NCBI GenBank assembly: GCA_022616475.1
Contig: JAKEEP010000088.1
Location: 1-32,698 of the forward strand
Source: Phycisphaerales bacterium
GTDB taxonomy: Bacteria; Planctomycetota; Phycisphaerae; Phycisphaerales; SM1A02
Direction: 5' to 3'
DNA length: 32,698 nucleotides
Positions 6,707 to 17,783 of this stretch are shown one piece after another; within the stretch, counting starts at the first letter, position 1, and each line of letters opens with the position of its first letter. The notes beneath the pieces were generated by a model. That model was not told the DNA's origin and did not search any database. It saw only the letters and a list, made by a program, of their open reading frames with translations. A program made the translations under genes and the position numbers.

Positions 6707-6821
6707 GGCAATTTACGATTTCAGATTTCAGATTTACGATTCTTCAGGCGCGACTCCAACGGTGAACGGTGACGGGCCAAACAATCGAAATCGTAAATCC
6801 AAAATCGTAAATCAATAAAAT
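6707..6821. repeat. AT-rich word repeats after nuoA
   Basis: This stretch is built from repeated words such as TTTACGATT, ATTTCAGATT and AATCGTAAATC, present in both direct and inverted forms (for example ATTTACGATT near 6730 and AATCGTAAAT near 6788 and 6804). It is far lower in GC than its surroundings. The words resemble dispersed intergenic repeats commonly seen in planctomycete genomes. Short ORFs in it are low-complexity and not credible genes. Confidence 0.65.
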
Positions 6822-6852: not shown

Positions 6853-7371
6853 GGAAGGGAAGGAAGAAGCCGTGATGCTCAGCAGCGTGGTGGCGCCGCG
6901 AGCGGGCTTCCCCAGATCTGTTGGCCGCCGACGTCCGGCGGTCCTTGTTGAACCAAACAAAATGCGATGGGCAGCGATCGCCTTGGAGCTAGCCTCCCTG
7001 CGGTTGAGATTCGGCTTCCCGAATCATCAATGAACTGCAGGGGGTTGGGATCACTCGTGTCCTTGTTTTCCCAACCGTGCAAGTTCATCCATCCACTCGC
7101 CGACCGTTGGAATCTCCGTTCCGTGCCTGCTGCCCATCGCCGAGAACGAAGCGGACCGCCGGAGCATGCGGCCGCCGCGTCCCGTTTTGAGGCGACAAGT
7201 CTGAACAACGAGCAAGCATCTTTCGCAGCTGGGCTCGTCGTCATTCTTCCTCCATGCGCCTCGTGCATAACAAAGTTCCGAGTTCTGAGTTCTGAGTTCC
7301 GAGTTATTGGTTCTTGGTTATTGGTATTGGTTTGCGCTATCGACCAACAACGAACGACGAACAACGAACGA
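6853..7371. other. Non-coding stretch between nuoA and nrdJ
   Basis: I see no convincing gene in these 519 bp. ORFs on both strands run through it, but they are Ser/Arg-rich, lack family features and cross the repeats. Near 6921-6941 there is a GC-rich palindrome (CCGCCG-ACGT-CCGGCGG). From 7277 to 7371 the sequence dissolves into word repeats (GAGTTCTGAGTTCTGAGTTC, then TTGGTTATTGG, then ACGAACAACGAACGAC). The stretch is probably the 3' untranslated region of nrdJ plus repeat debris. Confidence 0.5.
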
Positions 7372-10300
7372 CTAACTGCATCCCATCGAATTGCCGCAGT
7401 TCATGCACTTGTAGCAACTGCCGTTGCGCACGGTGATCGACCCGCAGCCGTCGCATGCCGGCGCGTCGCCCATTAAGGCGGCGTTTGATTGGTCTAGCGG
7501 ACTAGCCAGCGCGATACCGGCCGCACCCGAGCTCTCGGCCGCAATCTGCACTGACTCCTCGATGTGCCTGGTCATGAGGATCGAAGCGCTGCTCATCGCC
7601 CCGGGAACGCCAACCCCCGGAACGCCAACTCCCGGAATGCCAACCCCCGGAATGCCAACCCCCGGAATGCCAACCCCCGGAATCGCCCCGGGAATCCCAG
7701 CCCCCGGAACACGGCCATTCCCACCGGCCACAGCCATGCTCGTGGTCGCACGCATCGAACTCGATGGCCCGTCGATCTTCGCCCGGCCGTCGATCTCGCT
7801 CAATCGCTGAACCGCCGCGCTCGACGGTCGATTCAAACCGCTGGTGCCGGTCGCGCCGATCACGCTTGATTTCGGGCTTGCCAGTCCTGGTCCCGAGCCA
7901 AGATTCGAGTCTTTCTCCAGCCATCTCGCGCCCTCCTGAACCGCCTCAGACCTGATCCCCGTGCTTGGAGGCGGCGTTTGCGTTCCCGTCTTCACGCCCT
8001 GCGTACGCGGCGGGGCATTCGCTTGCCGATACCCGGGGATGAACTCCATCCCCATCCACCGGAAGATGTAATCCACGAGGCTCTTGGCGATGGGGACGTC
8101 GGCATTGGTCGTCATCCCCATCGGCTCGAAGCGCTGATGAGCGAACTTGTTGACCAGACTCTCTATCGGCACGCCGTATTGCAACGCAACACTGATCGCC
8201 GTGCCCAAAGAGTCCATCAACCCGCCGATGGTCGAGCCCTCCTTGCTCATCGTGATGAACAACTCGCCAGGCGAGCCGTCATCATACTGGCCGACGGTCA
8301 AATATCCCTCGTGCCCTGCAACATTGAAGTGATGCGTGATCGATCGCCGGGTGTCGGGCAGGCGGCGGCGCATCGGGCGCTCGATAATGCGCTCCACGAT
8401 TCTTTCGATATACGCCGGGTGGTCGTGCGGAGCCGGATGTTCATCGCCGTTATTGCTTGCTAGCATCCGGCTGATCACCGGCTGGTCGGTTCGGCGCGCC
8501 GGGTCCAGATTCCCTGGAGTGACGGACGTGGGGGGGTCGGAGAATGTCGATGAGGTCGATGTCCCAGCACGCTCCGCTGCCGCAGCTTCGGTTAATGCTT
8601 CCCCCAGCACAGCCTCGACCTCCTCGGCATTGATGTCTTCGCCGGTCTGGTCATCCGATTCAACATCCGACTTGGTGCTCAACGGTTGACTCAGCTTGCT
8701 GTTGTCGCGATAGAGCGCGTTGGCTTTCAAGCCAAGCTCCCAACTCAGGTGATACGCGGCACCAATCGCGCTCACGCTCGCCTCTTCGGGCAGGTTGATG
8801 GTCTTGGAAATCGCTCCGCTGATGAAGGGCTGCGCGGCCGCCATCATTCGAATATGCCCTTGCGGCGCGATGAATCTTGTGCCGGTGGCGCCGCACTTGT
8901 TGGCGCAATCGAACACCGCCAAATGCTCTGGCTTGATATGGGGCGCGCCTTCGATGCACTGGGTGCCGCAGACGATGCGGTTGAGTTCATCGATCTGGCG
9001 CGTCGTGAGTCCTAAAGCCTTCAAGCCGTTGAAGGTCGAATCCTTTTTCGCCTTCTCCGGATCAATGCCGAACGATTTCAGGACGCGCTCCGGCATCGAC
9101 CACGCCGTGAACGCAAAGCTCAGCTCGAACACTGTTGGCAGCGTGTTCTCAACCTCGACCAGCTCGTTCGAGTGGTAGCCACGCGACTGCAGATAGTCGC
9201 GGAACGTTTTGCTTCCCGATTGTTGCGATGCCGGCAGCGGCGTATCGATGCTCAGCGTGCCCATCACGTATGTCACAATGTCGTCGATCTGCCTGGGCGA
9301 ATAGCCGAGCGACTTGAGAGCCGGCCTCAACGAGGCATTCGCGATCTTGAAGTAGCCACCGCCCGCCAGCTTCTTGAACTTCACCAGGGCGAAATCCGGC
9401 TCCACGCCGGTTGTGTCGCAGTCCATGAGCAGGCCGATCGTGCCGGTGGGCGCGATGACCGTCACTTGCGCGTTGCGGTAGCCGTAACGCTGGCCCAGTT
9501 CCATCGCGTCATCCCACGCCTTGGTCGCTCGCTCGAACACGTCACTCGCGTTTTCGAGATTCATTGAACCGGTCTTGAACCGCTCGTGATCGATCGGCAC
9601 GGGCTTGATCGAAAGACCTTCATACGCATCCGAATCGCGCGGCACGCCGTAGGCGGCGCGGCGATGGTTGCGGATCACCCGCATCATCGCTTCGCGGTTC
9701 TTGGAGTAGCCGGGGAATGGCGTGAGCTGGCCGGCCATCTGCGCGCTCATGGCATACGAGCGGCCGGTCAGAATCGCGCTCAGGGCGCCGCAGATCGCCC
9801 GCGCGTCCTCGCTGTCGTAGGGGATTCCGGCCTGCATGAGCATCGCACCCAGATTCGCATAGCCCAGGCCCAGCGTGCGGAAGCGGAAGCTCTGGCGCGC
9901 GATCTCTTCCGAAGGGAACGAAGCCATCAGGACGCTGATTTCGAGGACGATCGTCCACAAGTTGATGGCGTGCTCGTAGCCTTCAAGATCAAATCGTCGG
10001 CGATCGGCGTCGAAGAACTCCATCAAGTTGATCGACGCCAGGTTGCACGCGGTGTCGTCGAGGAACATGTACTCGCTGCACGGATTGGACGCGTTGATGC
10101 GGCCGGAGTTGGGGCAGGTGTGCCAGTCGTTGATCGTCGTGTCGTACTGCACGCCCGGATCGGCGCAACGCCAGGCGGCCCGGCAGATCTGGTTCCACAG
10201 GTCACGGGCCTTGAGGGTTTTGGAGATCGCGCCATCGGTTCGACGGCGCAAGTGCCAGTCGCCGTCGTTCTCAACTGCGCGGAAGAAGTCGTCCGTCAGG

Positions 10301-11328
10301 CGTACAGAGTTATTGGAGTTCTGGCCGCTGACGGTGTAGTACGCTTCGCCGTTGAAGTCGTAGGTCAGTTTGAGACTGAGACTGTCGGCCAGTTCCTTCT
10401 GATCCTTGGGCAGGTGCTTCATGCCTTCGACCAGCGCGGCCACCTTCAGCTCTTCGCGAACCTTCCAGTTCACGAAGGCTTCGATGTCGGGATGATCGGC
10501 ATCGAGGCAGACCATCTTCGCGGCGCGGCGGGTCGTGCCCCCAGATTTAATCGCGCCCGCCGCACGGTCGCCGATGCGCAGCCAGCTCATGAGGCCAGAG
10601 CTGGTTCCGCCGCCCGAGAGCGGTTCGCCCTCGCCGCGAAGGGAGGAGAAGTTCGTGCCTGTGCCTGAGCCGTATTTGAAGAGTCGCGCTTCGCGCGTCC
10701 ACAAGTCCATGATTCCGCCACCCCCCACAAGATCATCCTTTACAGATTGAATGAAACAGGCGTGCGGCTGGGGATGCGTGTAGGCGTCAGCCGCCAGCCG
10801 CACGGCGCCGGTTTCGGGATCGGCGATGAAGTGTCCTTGGGGCGGGCCGCTAATGCCGTAGGCCCAGTTGAGGCCTGTGTTGAACCACTGGGGCGAGTTG
10901 GGCGCCGCCATTTGGTGCAGCATCATGTAGGCGATCTCGTCGTAGAACGCCTGGGCATCCTCGGCGGAGTCGAAGTAGCCATGCTCCTGCCCCCAGTGCT
11001 TCCAGCAACCGGCCAGGCGATGGACAACCTGGCGGACGGATTTTTCGGGACCTGTGTGTGGTTCGTGGTTCGTGGTTCGTGGTTCGTTGCTTTTGACTTG
11101 TTGACTTGTTGACTTGTTGACTTGTGCCTGCGGCACTCCCGCCTTGCGGAAATACTTGCTCACCATGATGTCGGTGGCGAGCTGGCTCCAGCTCTTGGGG
11201 ACCTCGGCGTCCTTCATCTCGAACACCGTCGAGCCATCGGCATTGGTGATCTTACTTGTGCGCAGCGTCCACTCGACCGTGTTGTACACGTCGTGCCCGG
11301 CCGTCGTAAACCTGCGCGTGATCTTCAT
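7372..11328 (-). CDS. nrdJ: Vitamin B12-dependent (class II) ribonucleoside-diphosphate reductase
   Basis: 1318 residues. It reduces ribonucleotides to deoxyribonucleotides using adenosylcobalamin, needing no separate small subunit or oxygen. Clear landmarks: MAAPNSPQWFNTGLNWAYG near the start, KYGSGTGTNFSSLRGEGEPL, the catalytic NPCSE motif (N415, C417, E419), APTGTIGLLMDCDTTGVEPD, and GTQCIEGAPHIKPEH. A TSCPD domain lies at about 1000-1110, and a Cys-rich C-terminus at 1292-1316 (CDGCGS, CYKCMNCG, CS) is the likely redox tail. Oddities: residues about 67-93 are an in-frame low-complexity insert, and the linker at about 1205-1243 holds tandem GVGIP pentapeptides. dcd lies upstream on the same strand, with two low-GC genes between. 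No cobalamin riboswitch is recognisable in the 95 bp upstream. Confidence 0.95.
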   Translation of the reverse strand: MKITRRFTTAGHDVYNTVEWTLRTSKITNADGSTVFEMKDAEVPKSWSQLATDIMVSKYFRKAGVPQAQVNKSTSQQVKSNEPRTTNHEPHTGPEKSVRQVVHRLAGCWKHWGQEHGYFDSAEDAQAFYDEIAYMMLHQMAAPNSPQWFNTGLNWAYGISGPPQGHFIADPETGAVRLAADAYTHPQPHACFIQSVKDDLVGGGGIMDLWTREARLFKYGSGTGTNFSSLRGEGEPLSGGGTSSGLMSWLRIGDRAAGAIKSGGTTRRAAKMVCLDADHPDIEAFVNWKVREELKVAALVEGMKHLPKDQKELADSLSLKLTYDFNGEAYYTVSGQNSNNSVRLTDDFFRAVENDGDWHLRRRTDGAISKTLKARDLWNQICRAAWRCADPGVQYDTTINDWHTCPNSGRINASNPCSEYMFLDDTACNLASINLMEFFDADRRRFDLEGYEHAINLWTIVLEISVLMASFPSEEIARQSFRFRTLGLGYANLGAMLMQAGIPYDSEDARAICGALSAILTGRSYAMSAQMAGQLTPFPGYSKNREAMMRVIRNHRRAAYGVPRDSDAYEGLSIKPVPIDHERFKTGSMNLENASDVFERATKAWDDAMELGQRYGYRNAQVTVIAPTGTIGLLMDCDTTGVEPDFALVKFKKLAGGGYFKIANASLRPALKSLGYSPRQIDDIVTYVMGTLSIDTPLPASQQSGSKTFRDYLQSRGYHSNELVEVENTLPTVFELSFAFTAWSMPERVLKSFGIDPEKAKKDSTFNGLKALGLTTRQIDELNRIVCGTQCIEGAPHIKPEHLAVFDCANKCGATGTRFIAPQGHIRMMAAAQPFISGAISKTINLPEEASVSAIGAAYHLSWELGLKANALYRDNSKLSQPLSTKSDVESDDQTGEDINAEEVEAVLGEALTEAAAAERAGTSTSSTFSDPPTSVTPGNLDPARRTDQPVISRMLASNNGDEHPAPHDHPAYIERIVERIIERPMRRRLPDTRRSITHHFNVAGHEGYLTVGQYDDGSPGELFITMSKEGSTIGGLMDSLGTAISVALQYGVPIESLVNKFAHQRFEPMGMTTNADVPIAKSLVDYIFRWMGMEFIPGYRQANAPPRTQGVKTGTQTPPPSTGIRSEAVQEGARWLEKDSNLGSGPGLASPKSSVIGATGTSGLNRPSSAAVQRLSEIDGRAKIDGPSSSMRATTSMAVAGGNGRVPGAGIPGAIPGVGIPGVGIPGVGIPGVGVPGVGVPGAMSSASILMTRHIEESVQIAAESSGAAGIALASPLDQSNAALMGDAPACDGCGSITVRNGSCYKCMNCGNSMGCS
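7604..7678 (-). repeat. 15-bp tandem repeat encoding elastin-like pentapeptides in NrdJ
   Basis: Five 15-bp units lie end to end: units at 7604, 7619, 7634, 7649 and 7664, differing only by C/T changes at two positions. The last three are identical (GGAATGCCAACCCCC on the plus strand). Each unit encodes GVGIP or GVGVP in NrdJ. Degenerate copies continue on both sides, giving the GAIPGVGIPG and RVPGAGIPG phrases. Confidence 0.95.
11059..11124 (-). repeat. Word-repeat insertion inside nrdJ
   Basis: Four copies of the 7-mer TGGTTCG (11059-11086) are followed by four copies of the 8-mer TTGACTTG (11093-11124). Read in the nrdJ frame they encode a Thr/Asn/His/Gln/Ser-rich stretch (NKSTSQQVK, then EPRTTNHEPH) in an otherwise conserved N-terminal region. 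The reading frame is preserved on both sides. Confidence 0.9.
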
Positions 11329-16556: not shown

Positions 16557-17783
16557 GTGAACGAGCGCGTGGATGACAACCAACGAATCCTCAACCGCTG
16601 CCGCGAACTGGGTTTCGGCCTCGCCGGCATCACCGATGCCGCACCGACGCAGTATGAGCAGGAAATGATCGACTGGCTCTCCGCCGGCAAGCACGGCGAA
16701 ATGGCGTACCTGCGCCACAACCTCAAGCTTCGTCTCGACCCGCGCGAGCTTGTTCCCGGGGCCGAGTCCATCATCTGTGTCGCCGATCGTTATTTTTCCC
16801 CTCTTCCTGTGGGAGAGGGGTTAGGGGCGCGGGCCGGAATCTCGAAAAGCGCGCCAAGTCATATTCAGCAAGGTATGCCCTCACCCCAGCCCTCTCCCAG
16901 AGGGAGAGGGCGTCCTACGGCTGCGCCGCAGCTGCCACCGCGCGGCCGTATCGCCCGCTACGCCCGTGGCGACGACTACCACGTCGTCATGAAGAAACGT
17001 CTGCACGCCCTGTGCAACGAACTGGCGAAACTCTTCCCCAACGAGACCTTTCGCGCCTGCGTCGATACCGCACCAATCCTCGAGCGCGAGCACGCCCAGC
17101 GCGCCGGCCTCGGCGCCGTGGGCAAGCACACACTCCTCATCCAGCGCGGCGTCGGAAGCTACCTATTGCTCGGTGAAATAGTCACCACGCTCCAGCTTGC
17201 CTCTTCGCGGCCGGCCGAGCCCGATCCCTGCGGCTCGTGTACTCGCTGCATCGACGCCTGCCCAACCAGGGCGATCACACCTTTCTCCGTCGATGCCACC
17301 AAGTGCATCAGCTACCTCACCATCGAGCATCGCGGCCCGATCGACGAGAGGTACCACCACGCCATGGGGGACTGGATCTTCGGCTGCGACATCTGCCAGG
17401 AAGTCTGCCCGCACAACCAGCCTACCGCGCGCAGCAGACCTGAAAATGCGCCGGCTCACGCCGCGTACACCGCGCGCCGTGATTCGTTCGACCTCTTGGA
17501 AATCCTGAACTGGAACGAAGAATCTCGGCGCGCCGCCTTCATCAAGTCCGCCATGAAGCGCGCCAAGCTCGACATGATCAAGCGAAACGCCTTGATCGCC
17601 GTAGGAAACTCCCTTCAACCAGGCGCCGCAGCCATTGACCTTCACGACAGAATTGAGGAGCTGGCGGCCTCGAACTCAGAGTCAGCAATCGTTCGACAAA
17701 CTGCGGCGGCAGTATTGAAGCGCCTGCCGCCGCAAAAGGTCAGTTCGGTGTCATTCGATCCTGCTCGAACTTCGCCCGCATAG
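16557..17783 (+). CDS. queG: Epoxyqueuosine reductase
   Basis: 408 residues, GTG start. It carries out the last step of queuosine tRNA modification, reducing epoxyqueuosine to queuosine using cobalamin and two [4Fe-4S] clusters. The clusters are supplied by CGSCTRCIDACP (first Cys at 225) and GCDICQEVCPHN (first Cys at 277). Other landmarks: ITDAAP near the start, ARGDDYHVVMKKRL, VDTAPILEREHAQRAGLG and GKHTLLIQRG. Residues about 81-125 are foreign to the family: they are encoded by a pair of inverted REP-like repeats (SPLPVGEGLGAR and SPQPSPRGRG) that interrupt the place where the sequence normally passes from CVADRYF to GRIARYARG. The frame is intact, so the protein may still work. The 3' end overlaps the opposing 84-aa ORF by 44 bp. 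Confidence 0.93.
   Translation: MNERVDDNQRILNRCRELGFGLAGITDAAPTQYEQEMIDWLSAGKHGEMAYLRHNLKLRLDPRELVPGAESIICVADRYFSPLPVGEGLGARAGISKSAPSHIQQGMPSPQPSPRGRGRPTAAPQLPPRGRIARYARGDDYHVVMKKRLHALCNELAKLFPNETFRACVDTAPILEREHAQRAGLGAVGKHTLLIQRGVGSYLLLGEIVTTLQLASSRPAEPDPCGSCTRCIDACPTRAITPFSVDATKCISYLTIEHRGPIDERYHHAMGDWIFGCDICQEVCPHNQPTARSRPENAPAHAAYTARRDSFDLLEILNWNEESRRAAFIKSAMKRAKLDMIKRNALIAVGNSLQPGAAAIDLHDRIEELAASNSESAIVRQTAAAVLKRLPPQKVSSVSFDPARTSPA
16798..16911. repeat. Paired inverted REP-like repeats inserted in queG
   Basis: The left unit (about 16798-16830) reads CCCTCTTCCTGTGGGAGAGG and on; the right unit (about 16877-16911) is its approximate reverse complement (CCCTCTCCCAGAGGGAGAGG in part). Each is itself partly palindromic. 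This GGGAGAGGG...CCCTCTCCC class of element is found dispersed between genes in many bacteria, so its place inside a conserved coding sequence is unusual. Confidence 0.85.

Follow-up and report, generated by a model that had tools for sequence, protein, structure and literature searches.

An inverted pair of TM_ECO-type palindromes in frame within queG of a Phycisphaerales bacterium, and DUF559 nuclease genes as candidate partners of such repeats

The queG gene of a Phycisphaerales bacterium was found to carry an inverted pair of GGGAGAGGG palindromes inside its coding sequence, which raises the questions of what class of repeat this is, whether the enzyme tolerates it, and how repeats of this kind spread and enter genes. 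The locus lies in a window of 32,698 nucleotides, the whole stretch of DNA that was analysed, which is the entire contig C188 of a MAG of 3.66 Mb (88% complete, 331 contigs).

The queG gene and its extra loop

The gene (16557–17783, plus strand) starts with GTG and encodes a 408-residue epoxyqueuosine reductase that exceeds the QueG equivalog cut-off of TIGR00276 in a profile search (299.6 versus 200 bits). The repeat pair spans 112 bp (16799–16910), with its two opposed palindromes at 16799–16819 and 16890–16910. The open reading frame continues through it, the palindromes being translated as QueG residues 81–123 (encoded by 16797–16925, plus strand). An earlier, sequence-only reading of this DNA had described an opposed repeat pair that keeps the frame of queG, and the open frame and the profile score bear this out. 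Its figure for the gain, about 45 residues (81–125), had to be lowered: the loop between the strand CVADRY and GRIARYARG is 49 residues long here and 8–44 residues long (median 13) in 29 relatives, which gives a net gain of approximately 36 residues. In a second set of 39 QueGs of named genomes, which shares some genomes with the first and from which one sequence with a cut frame (L141) was dropped, the same loop is 9–32 residues long. The closest named relatives are Phycisphaerales/Planctomycetota MAGs. No conserved domain was present at this position in the 29 and 39 related QueGs of these overlapping sets, as the sequence-only reading needed, and a conserved extra QueG domain, absent from every relative compared, was rejected. 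An Rfam RNA was also rejected as the identity of the repeat; the Rfam scan of the window returned tRNA and no other RNA.

An AlphaFold2 model of QueG (39 sequences; pLDDT 89.9, pTM 0.86) gave the QueG structures 5d0b and 5d08 as best PDB matches. Within it, residues 81–120 of the insert had block-mean pLDDT values of 47–66, with residues 96–107 below 50, and the remainder of the model was confident. The structural mapping proposed by the earlier reading thus places the insert between two strands, which it probably connects as a disordered loop. That reading had left two outcomes side by side, tolerance at a surface loop or inactivation. Inactivation, with queG a recent pseudogene still open by chance, appears quite unlikely. 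Folding might suffer from a 36-residue insert placed between two strands in the N-terminal half, but the loop is naturally variable in length, the frame downstream of the repeat is intact with a coding score of 0.22 per codon, all columns invariant across the 39 QueGs are retained, including the cluster cysteines, and the first arm of the repeat (arm A, below), although decayed, has gained neither frameshift nor stop. Because the downstream frame is intact, its coding potential normal and the invariant columns all preserved, tolerance is better supported than inactivation. Our best reading of this copy, whose insertion and frame are directly visible, is that it would be tolerated in a permissive loop.

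Class, copies and landing sites of the repeat

Arm B (16878–16910, minus strand) fits the published TM_ECO pattern CCCTCNCCC-N3-6-GGGNGAGGG-N3-GGGNGAGGG exactly, as a type-B arm, and this pattern occurs once in the window, within the queG insert, and in none of 200 mononucleotide shuffles of the window. Arm A (16799–16833, plus strand; stem 16799–16807/16811–16819, linker GTTA, third strand 16824–16833) fails the strict pattern, its stem and third strand being decayed; it was recognised by its position in the doublet, and its class, type A with a linker of TTA type, was assigned from doublet comparison. A spacer of 44 bp (16834–16877) separates the arms. The repeat strand folds as a long hairpin (z −2.63), with 1 of 200 shuffles equally good. 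Terminal inverted repeats of the kind expected of a MITE are present, as opposed arms at either end, and inspection by eye of the 14 bp on either side of the listed doublets showed no constant direct repeat such as a target-site duplication would leave.

TM_ECO, formerly PIT, is a G/C-rich intrastrand-triplex motif (Holder et al. 2015, PMC4666352), and in vitro work has demonstrated that the E. coli sequence forms such a triplex. The accessible text of that paper counts 3,610 copies across 262 proteobacterial genomes, tabulates type-A and type-B arms of this kind in inverted pairs for E. coli, and describes the motif of E. coli K-12 as always intergenic. The same palindrome forms part of a CCCTCTCCCXX(X)GGGAGAGGG repeat with 100 copies in Enterobacter sp. 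638 (PMC2869309). The queG element resembles these: arms of type A (TTA as linker) and type B (CTG/CCG as linker) form an inverted pair like those of E. coli. It differs in that it is found in a planctomycete and in frame within genes, whereas those reported in the accessible text are proteobacterial. Judged by its pattern, the queG repeat belongs to the TM_ECO (PIT) triplex motif and not to the GTAG/RAYT REPs. The term REP-like in the sequence-only reading needs correction in that the element is not a classical REP. By eye, neither a GTAG nor a CGTC tag was present at the palindrome foot in the window element or the listed doublets, and a classical RAYT-driven REP was rejected on this ground and on the lack of arms at 10 Y1_Tnp loci.

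In-frame palindromic insertions are already known as a kind, from Rickettsia palindromic elements (RPEs) and intragenic REPs. Conserved genes in a number of species harbour in-frame dimers of GTAG/CGTC REPs, and such REPs have been reported also from Planctomycetes and Verrucomicrobia (Di Nocera et al. 2013, PMC3733652); the tag is present there, whereas here there is no tag and no RAYT gene beside the arms examined. RPEs (Ogata et al. 2000, as reviewed in PMC10969869) are in-frame palindromic repeats in unrelated genes. With these elements the present repeats share in-frame insertion into unrelated conserved genes, nine in this genome. To our knowledge, no nuclease partner of RPEs has been named. 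That TM/PIT repeats lie in frame within many genes is new as far as searched, and the literature searched contained no paper linking the peptide PLPLGEG with palindromic repeats.

Other copies of the repeat, which the earlier reading had expected, are plentiful in this genome: 88 BLAST matches were obtained, the looser pattern CCCTCTCCCN{1,12}GGGAGAGGG occurs in 114 places (its reversed pattern in 0), and 122 places match with at most one mismatch, or approximately 120 copies. Repeat matches at E ≤ 0.001 were also seen across species, in 14 of the 41 genomes searched, its own included. For a census, 104 exact palindromes (3-base loop) from the 114 looser-pattern places were grouped into 80 clusters, and a cluster was labelled in frame when the mean codon score, trained on 11 window ORFs, was above 0 on both sides. 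By this measure, 17 of the 80 clusters, queG included, fall within a single open frame that shows coding signal to either side, and the other 63 are mostly near or between genes; the view that such elements are usually strictly intergenic thus fails in this genome.

The two sides of 14 of the 16 non-queG in-frame clusters were scanned separately against Pfam (C46 and C292 were left out), and nine genes had family support on both sides: queG and those for 6PGD, an E2 acyltransferase, a PaaB-like protein, Lhr, PutA, a CN-hydrolase, a B12-MeaB protein and a histone-deacetylase-like protein. Where both sides of the insert matched one family, the profile coordinates adjoined: 1–126 and 141–290 for 6PGD, 25–339 and 349–459 for the aldehyde dehydrogenase of PutA, 3–114 and 133–244 for the CN-hydrolase, 1–95 and 98–297 for the histone-deacetylase-like protein, and 3–42 and 51–164 for the DEAD profile of Lhr. 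The E2 acyltransferase contains two doublets, one in each linker between its lipoyl, E3-binding and catalytic domains, and other inserts lie between the B12-binding and MeaB domains and between two PaaB-like domains. For B12-MeaB, 21 of 26 genomes searched (own included) gave a match, and homologues covering both halves show a gap at the insert. Six further in-frame candidates (C4:1957, C12, C30, C71, C243 and C4:485) have one-sided family support or a special arrangement. The element is read in several frames, so a single conserved peptide does not account for the in-frame set. Separate loci (C81, C172, C190, C276 and C179) contain whole doublets that are nearly identical and share the same spacer. 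Two doublets of 143 bp (L015 and L067, in C208 and C196) have an extra GGTCTCCGCAGGCGACTCGCCG(C/T)GGCGAGG inside one arm, suspected to be a nested insertion.

Long QueG loops of other species are likewise repeat-derived. In genome G033 the loop holds an inverted AAGTGGCCGAGTGG repeat, and AAGTGGNCGAGTGGNC occurs in 17 places in that genome and in 0 of six others (reversed-pattern control: 4+4 in G000, 1 in G011 and 1 in G033). The loop of G041 (L148, JADZCD010000027.1) is made of AGTTNGGAGTT units, and AGTTNGGAGTTNGGAGTT occurs in 35 places in that genome, 3 in G033, 1 in G011 and 0 in the other four. In G008, a single-contig genome, the loop carries a decayed type-B TM arm (score 26–31 against three TM references, equalled by 0–1 of 500 shuffles). 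Together with the window, these loops show that one QueG loop has received insertions from three or more unrelated repeat families; struck in this way across species, it offers a natural map of insertion tolerance. The G008 insertion also bears on whether the queG junction is an assembly artefact, a repeat-mediated misjoin in the MAG. The junction is known from the assembly, and many of the 331 contigs end in the repeat, but across the junction QueG continues in frame and without a break in family coordinates, the same situation recurs at 8 further genes, and a related insertion is present in a single-contig genome, making a misjoin highly improbable.

Further long QueG loops, in L055 (G036) and L205 (Anaerolineales UBA5797), have DNA resembling additional repeat families (AAAATTCA... 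and GAGCGGAGTGA, respectively). Short repeats of ATTTACGATTTC, AGTTCCGAGTTCTG and TTGACTTG types at 6711–6813, 7274–7308 and 11093–11124 of the window resemble simple repeats in the QueG loops of other species. The B12-dependent ribonucleotide reductase encoded by a minus-strand ORF (7372–11328) contains an in-frame 15-bp tandem repeat (GIPGV units) at 7599–7725, preceding its cysteine-rich C-terminal end.

DUF559 nuclease genes between TM arms

The queG insertion, which shows TM/PIT repeats entering genes in frame, led to DUF559 as a candidate TM partner. In cluster C4:485 of this genome, a DUF559 gene lies between TM arms and forms an in-frame fusion with an amylo-1,6-glucosidase domain (GDE_C). 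DUF559 is a family of PD-(D/E)XK nucleases; Vsr is picked up by a profile of YcjD (PMC1189080), and the structure of a relative has been solved (3hrl). In Caulobacter, the DUF559 protein VsrA reportedly drives a DNA-damage response in cells without a methylase (PMC12907096). A scan of the viral_contigs set with a DUF559 protein gave no relative.

A total of 49 DUF559 loci were compiled: all 11 strong matches (E < 1e-20) in the 41 genomes, 26 among the best new matches from 392 planctomycete genomes, in which many more matches exist, and 12 from 29 plasmid-collection records. A TM arm with at most 4 substitutions was found within 150 bp of the gene in 41 of the 49, and on both sides in 24. Arm-bearing loci make up 31 of 37 in Planctomycetota and 10 of 12 in Pseudomonadota, Deinococcota and Cyanobacteriota. 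Close to the DUF559 genes there are 74 arms (5.0 per kb). At greater distance these loci have 18 arms in 87 kb (0.21 per kb), and the control loci have 2 in 552 kb (0.004 per kb); the controls comprised 80 + 29 queG loci, 11 weak DUF559-like matches and 10 Y1_Tnp loci. Because the 4-substitution limit had been chosen after the first loci were viewed, a motif-free test was also run, in which the best repeat common to both flanks was compared with shuffles; the flank pair beat all 60 shuffles at 41 of 49 DUF559 loci and 8 of 94 controls. Of the 8 DUF559 loci lacking an arm within 150 bp, 3 also failed this test. Arm orientation at DUF559 loci is mixed, with both inward and outward arms.

DUF559 genes with such arms also enter genes in frame. 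In other planctomycetes, DUF559 lies in frame between HSDR_N and SWI2_SNF2 of HsdR, at the same site in L250, L255 and L257 (the HsdR scans covered the N part only in L255 and the C part only in L250). In L248 it occupies a different position of HsdR, and in L253 it sits inside the HsdM domain N6_Mtase. Arm-derived peptides lie at the sides of the inserted DUF559.

A RAYT gene would be expected to have its own REPs on either side, and the possibility that RAYT (Y1_Tnp) transposases spread the TM doublets, with DUF559 a passenger captured in repeat-rich spacers, has the published REP-RAYT model behind it. Y1_Tnp is found in 12 of 14 TM-bearing genomes and 13 of 27 others (p = 0.041), and co-occurrence across the 41 genomes does not favour DUF559, for which p = 0.064; a strong DUF559 gene is absent from 8 of the 14 TM-bearing genomes, and such a gene is present in 4 of the 27 without TM matches at E ≤ 0.001. 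However, of more than 100 Y1_Tnp matches, the 10 whose loci were examined, 4 of them from this genome, had 0 TM arms, as against arms at 41 of 49 DUF559 loci, and we regard RAYT-driven spread as rather unlikely. Equally doubtful is spread with no enzyme, by replication slippage or template switching at triplex or hairpin structures, with breaks there favouring DUF559 insertion. Some TM-rich genomes, e.g. that of G008, are without a strong DUF559 gene, and Holder et al. link TM sites with local instability and report no mobility genes around E. coli TM sites (PMC4666352). Against this, the near-identical whole doublets at separate loci call for copying of the whole unit, and the DUF559 link recurs in four phyla, Planctomycetota among them.

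DUF559 is proposed as a candidate TM mobiliser, known here from sequence association, and could alternatively be cargo. In the REPIN-RAYT system of Bertels and Rainey (2011), the inverted doublet is reportedly the mobile unit, and a nuclease gene is said to be flanked by the same repeats. The likeness lies in the inverted doublet and in the nuclease gene between the same repeats; the difference is that the candidate partner here is a PD-(D/E)XK protein and not an HUH tyrosine nuclease. We lean slightly towards the view that TM/PIT repeats derive, by lack of the gene, from a widespread family of mobile elements. In its autonomous form this family would consist of two TM arms enclosing a gene for a DUF559 (YcjD/Vsr-like PD-(D/E)XK) nuclease, and both forms would invade genes in frame (the short one queG and others; the nuclease-bearing one hsdR, hsdM and the glucosidase gene). 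The nuclease may recognise or cut the arms, or stalled hairpin or triplex structures, and so drive copying, a role analogous to that proposed for RAYT on REPs.

For the queG insertion, we consider it likely that a TM_ECO/PIT doublet, consisting of a type-A arm, a 44-bp spacer and an inverted type-B arm, entered the naturally variable queG loop and would belong to a DUF559-driven kind. Its length and phase preserved the frame, no stop codon arose, and the copy would have persisted because QueG tolerated the extra disordered peptide. The same process acted at many genes here, surviving coding-region copies being those in frame, several in interdomain linkers or loops, and the doublets would be the short gene-less form of the mobile unit. 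If true, a large family that carries the label 'domain of unknown function' would acquire a part in the mobility of repeats. The link between TM repeats and DUF559 is new as far as searched: within literature that was mostly without subscription papers, no joint mention of DUF559 and inverted repeats was found, and nothing relevant on mobile palindromic repeats with a Vsr-type endonuclease domain.

TM copies and ycjD in E. coli

The DUF559 gene of E. coli K-12, ycjD, lies between sapF and fabI and is followed by TM arms; the table of Holder et al. (PMC4666352) lists TM no. 9 at this place (1351239–1351204). Since ycjD adjoins a TM copy, the proposed part of DUF559 is open to experiment in a laboratory strain. 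The gene is present in 3,365 of 5,426 complete E. coli genomes, and the accessible part of PMC12817139 assigns it to phylogroups A, B1 and C, with eefRABCD in its place elsewhere. Sixty records spread evenly down the BLAST ranking were sampled, and a 504-kb contig and a plasmid were dropped. The 36 ycjD-positive chromosomes contain 16–32 TM places (median 20.5, ycjD locus counted) and the 22 ycjD-negative chromosomes 2–23 (median 6); with one place subtracted from the positive strains, p = 8e-8, which is not a fair probability because the strains are related, and the contrast is confounded by phylogroup. Among ycjD-negative strains with at least 10 TM places the gap is small (median 15.5 versus 19.5). 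Counts from a further TM pattern were left unused, since it is near mirror-symmetric and its reversed control was correspondingly high (15 versus 11 in E. coli KE47, 32 versus 28 in H240 and 39 versus 34 in N. gonorrhoeae). Just upstream of ycjD, at L261 (2456–3085) and L273 (1958–2590), an inverted repeat of a different sequence was observed (CACCTCATTCTGACAA / TTGTCAGAATGAGGTG).
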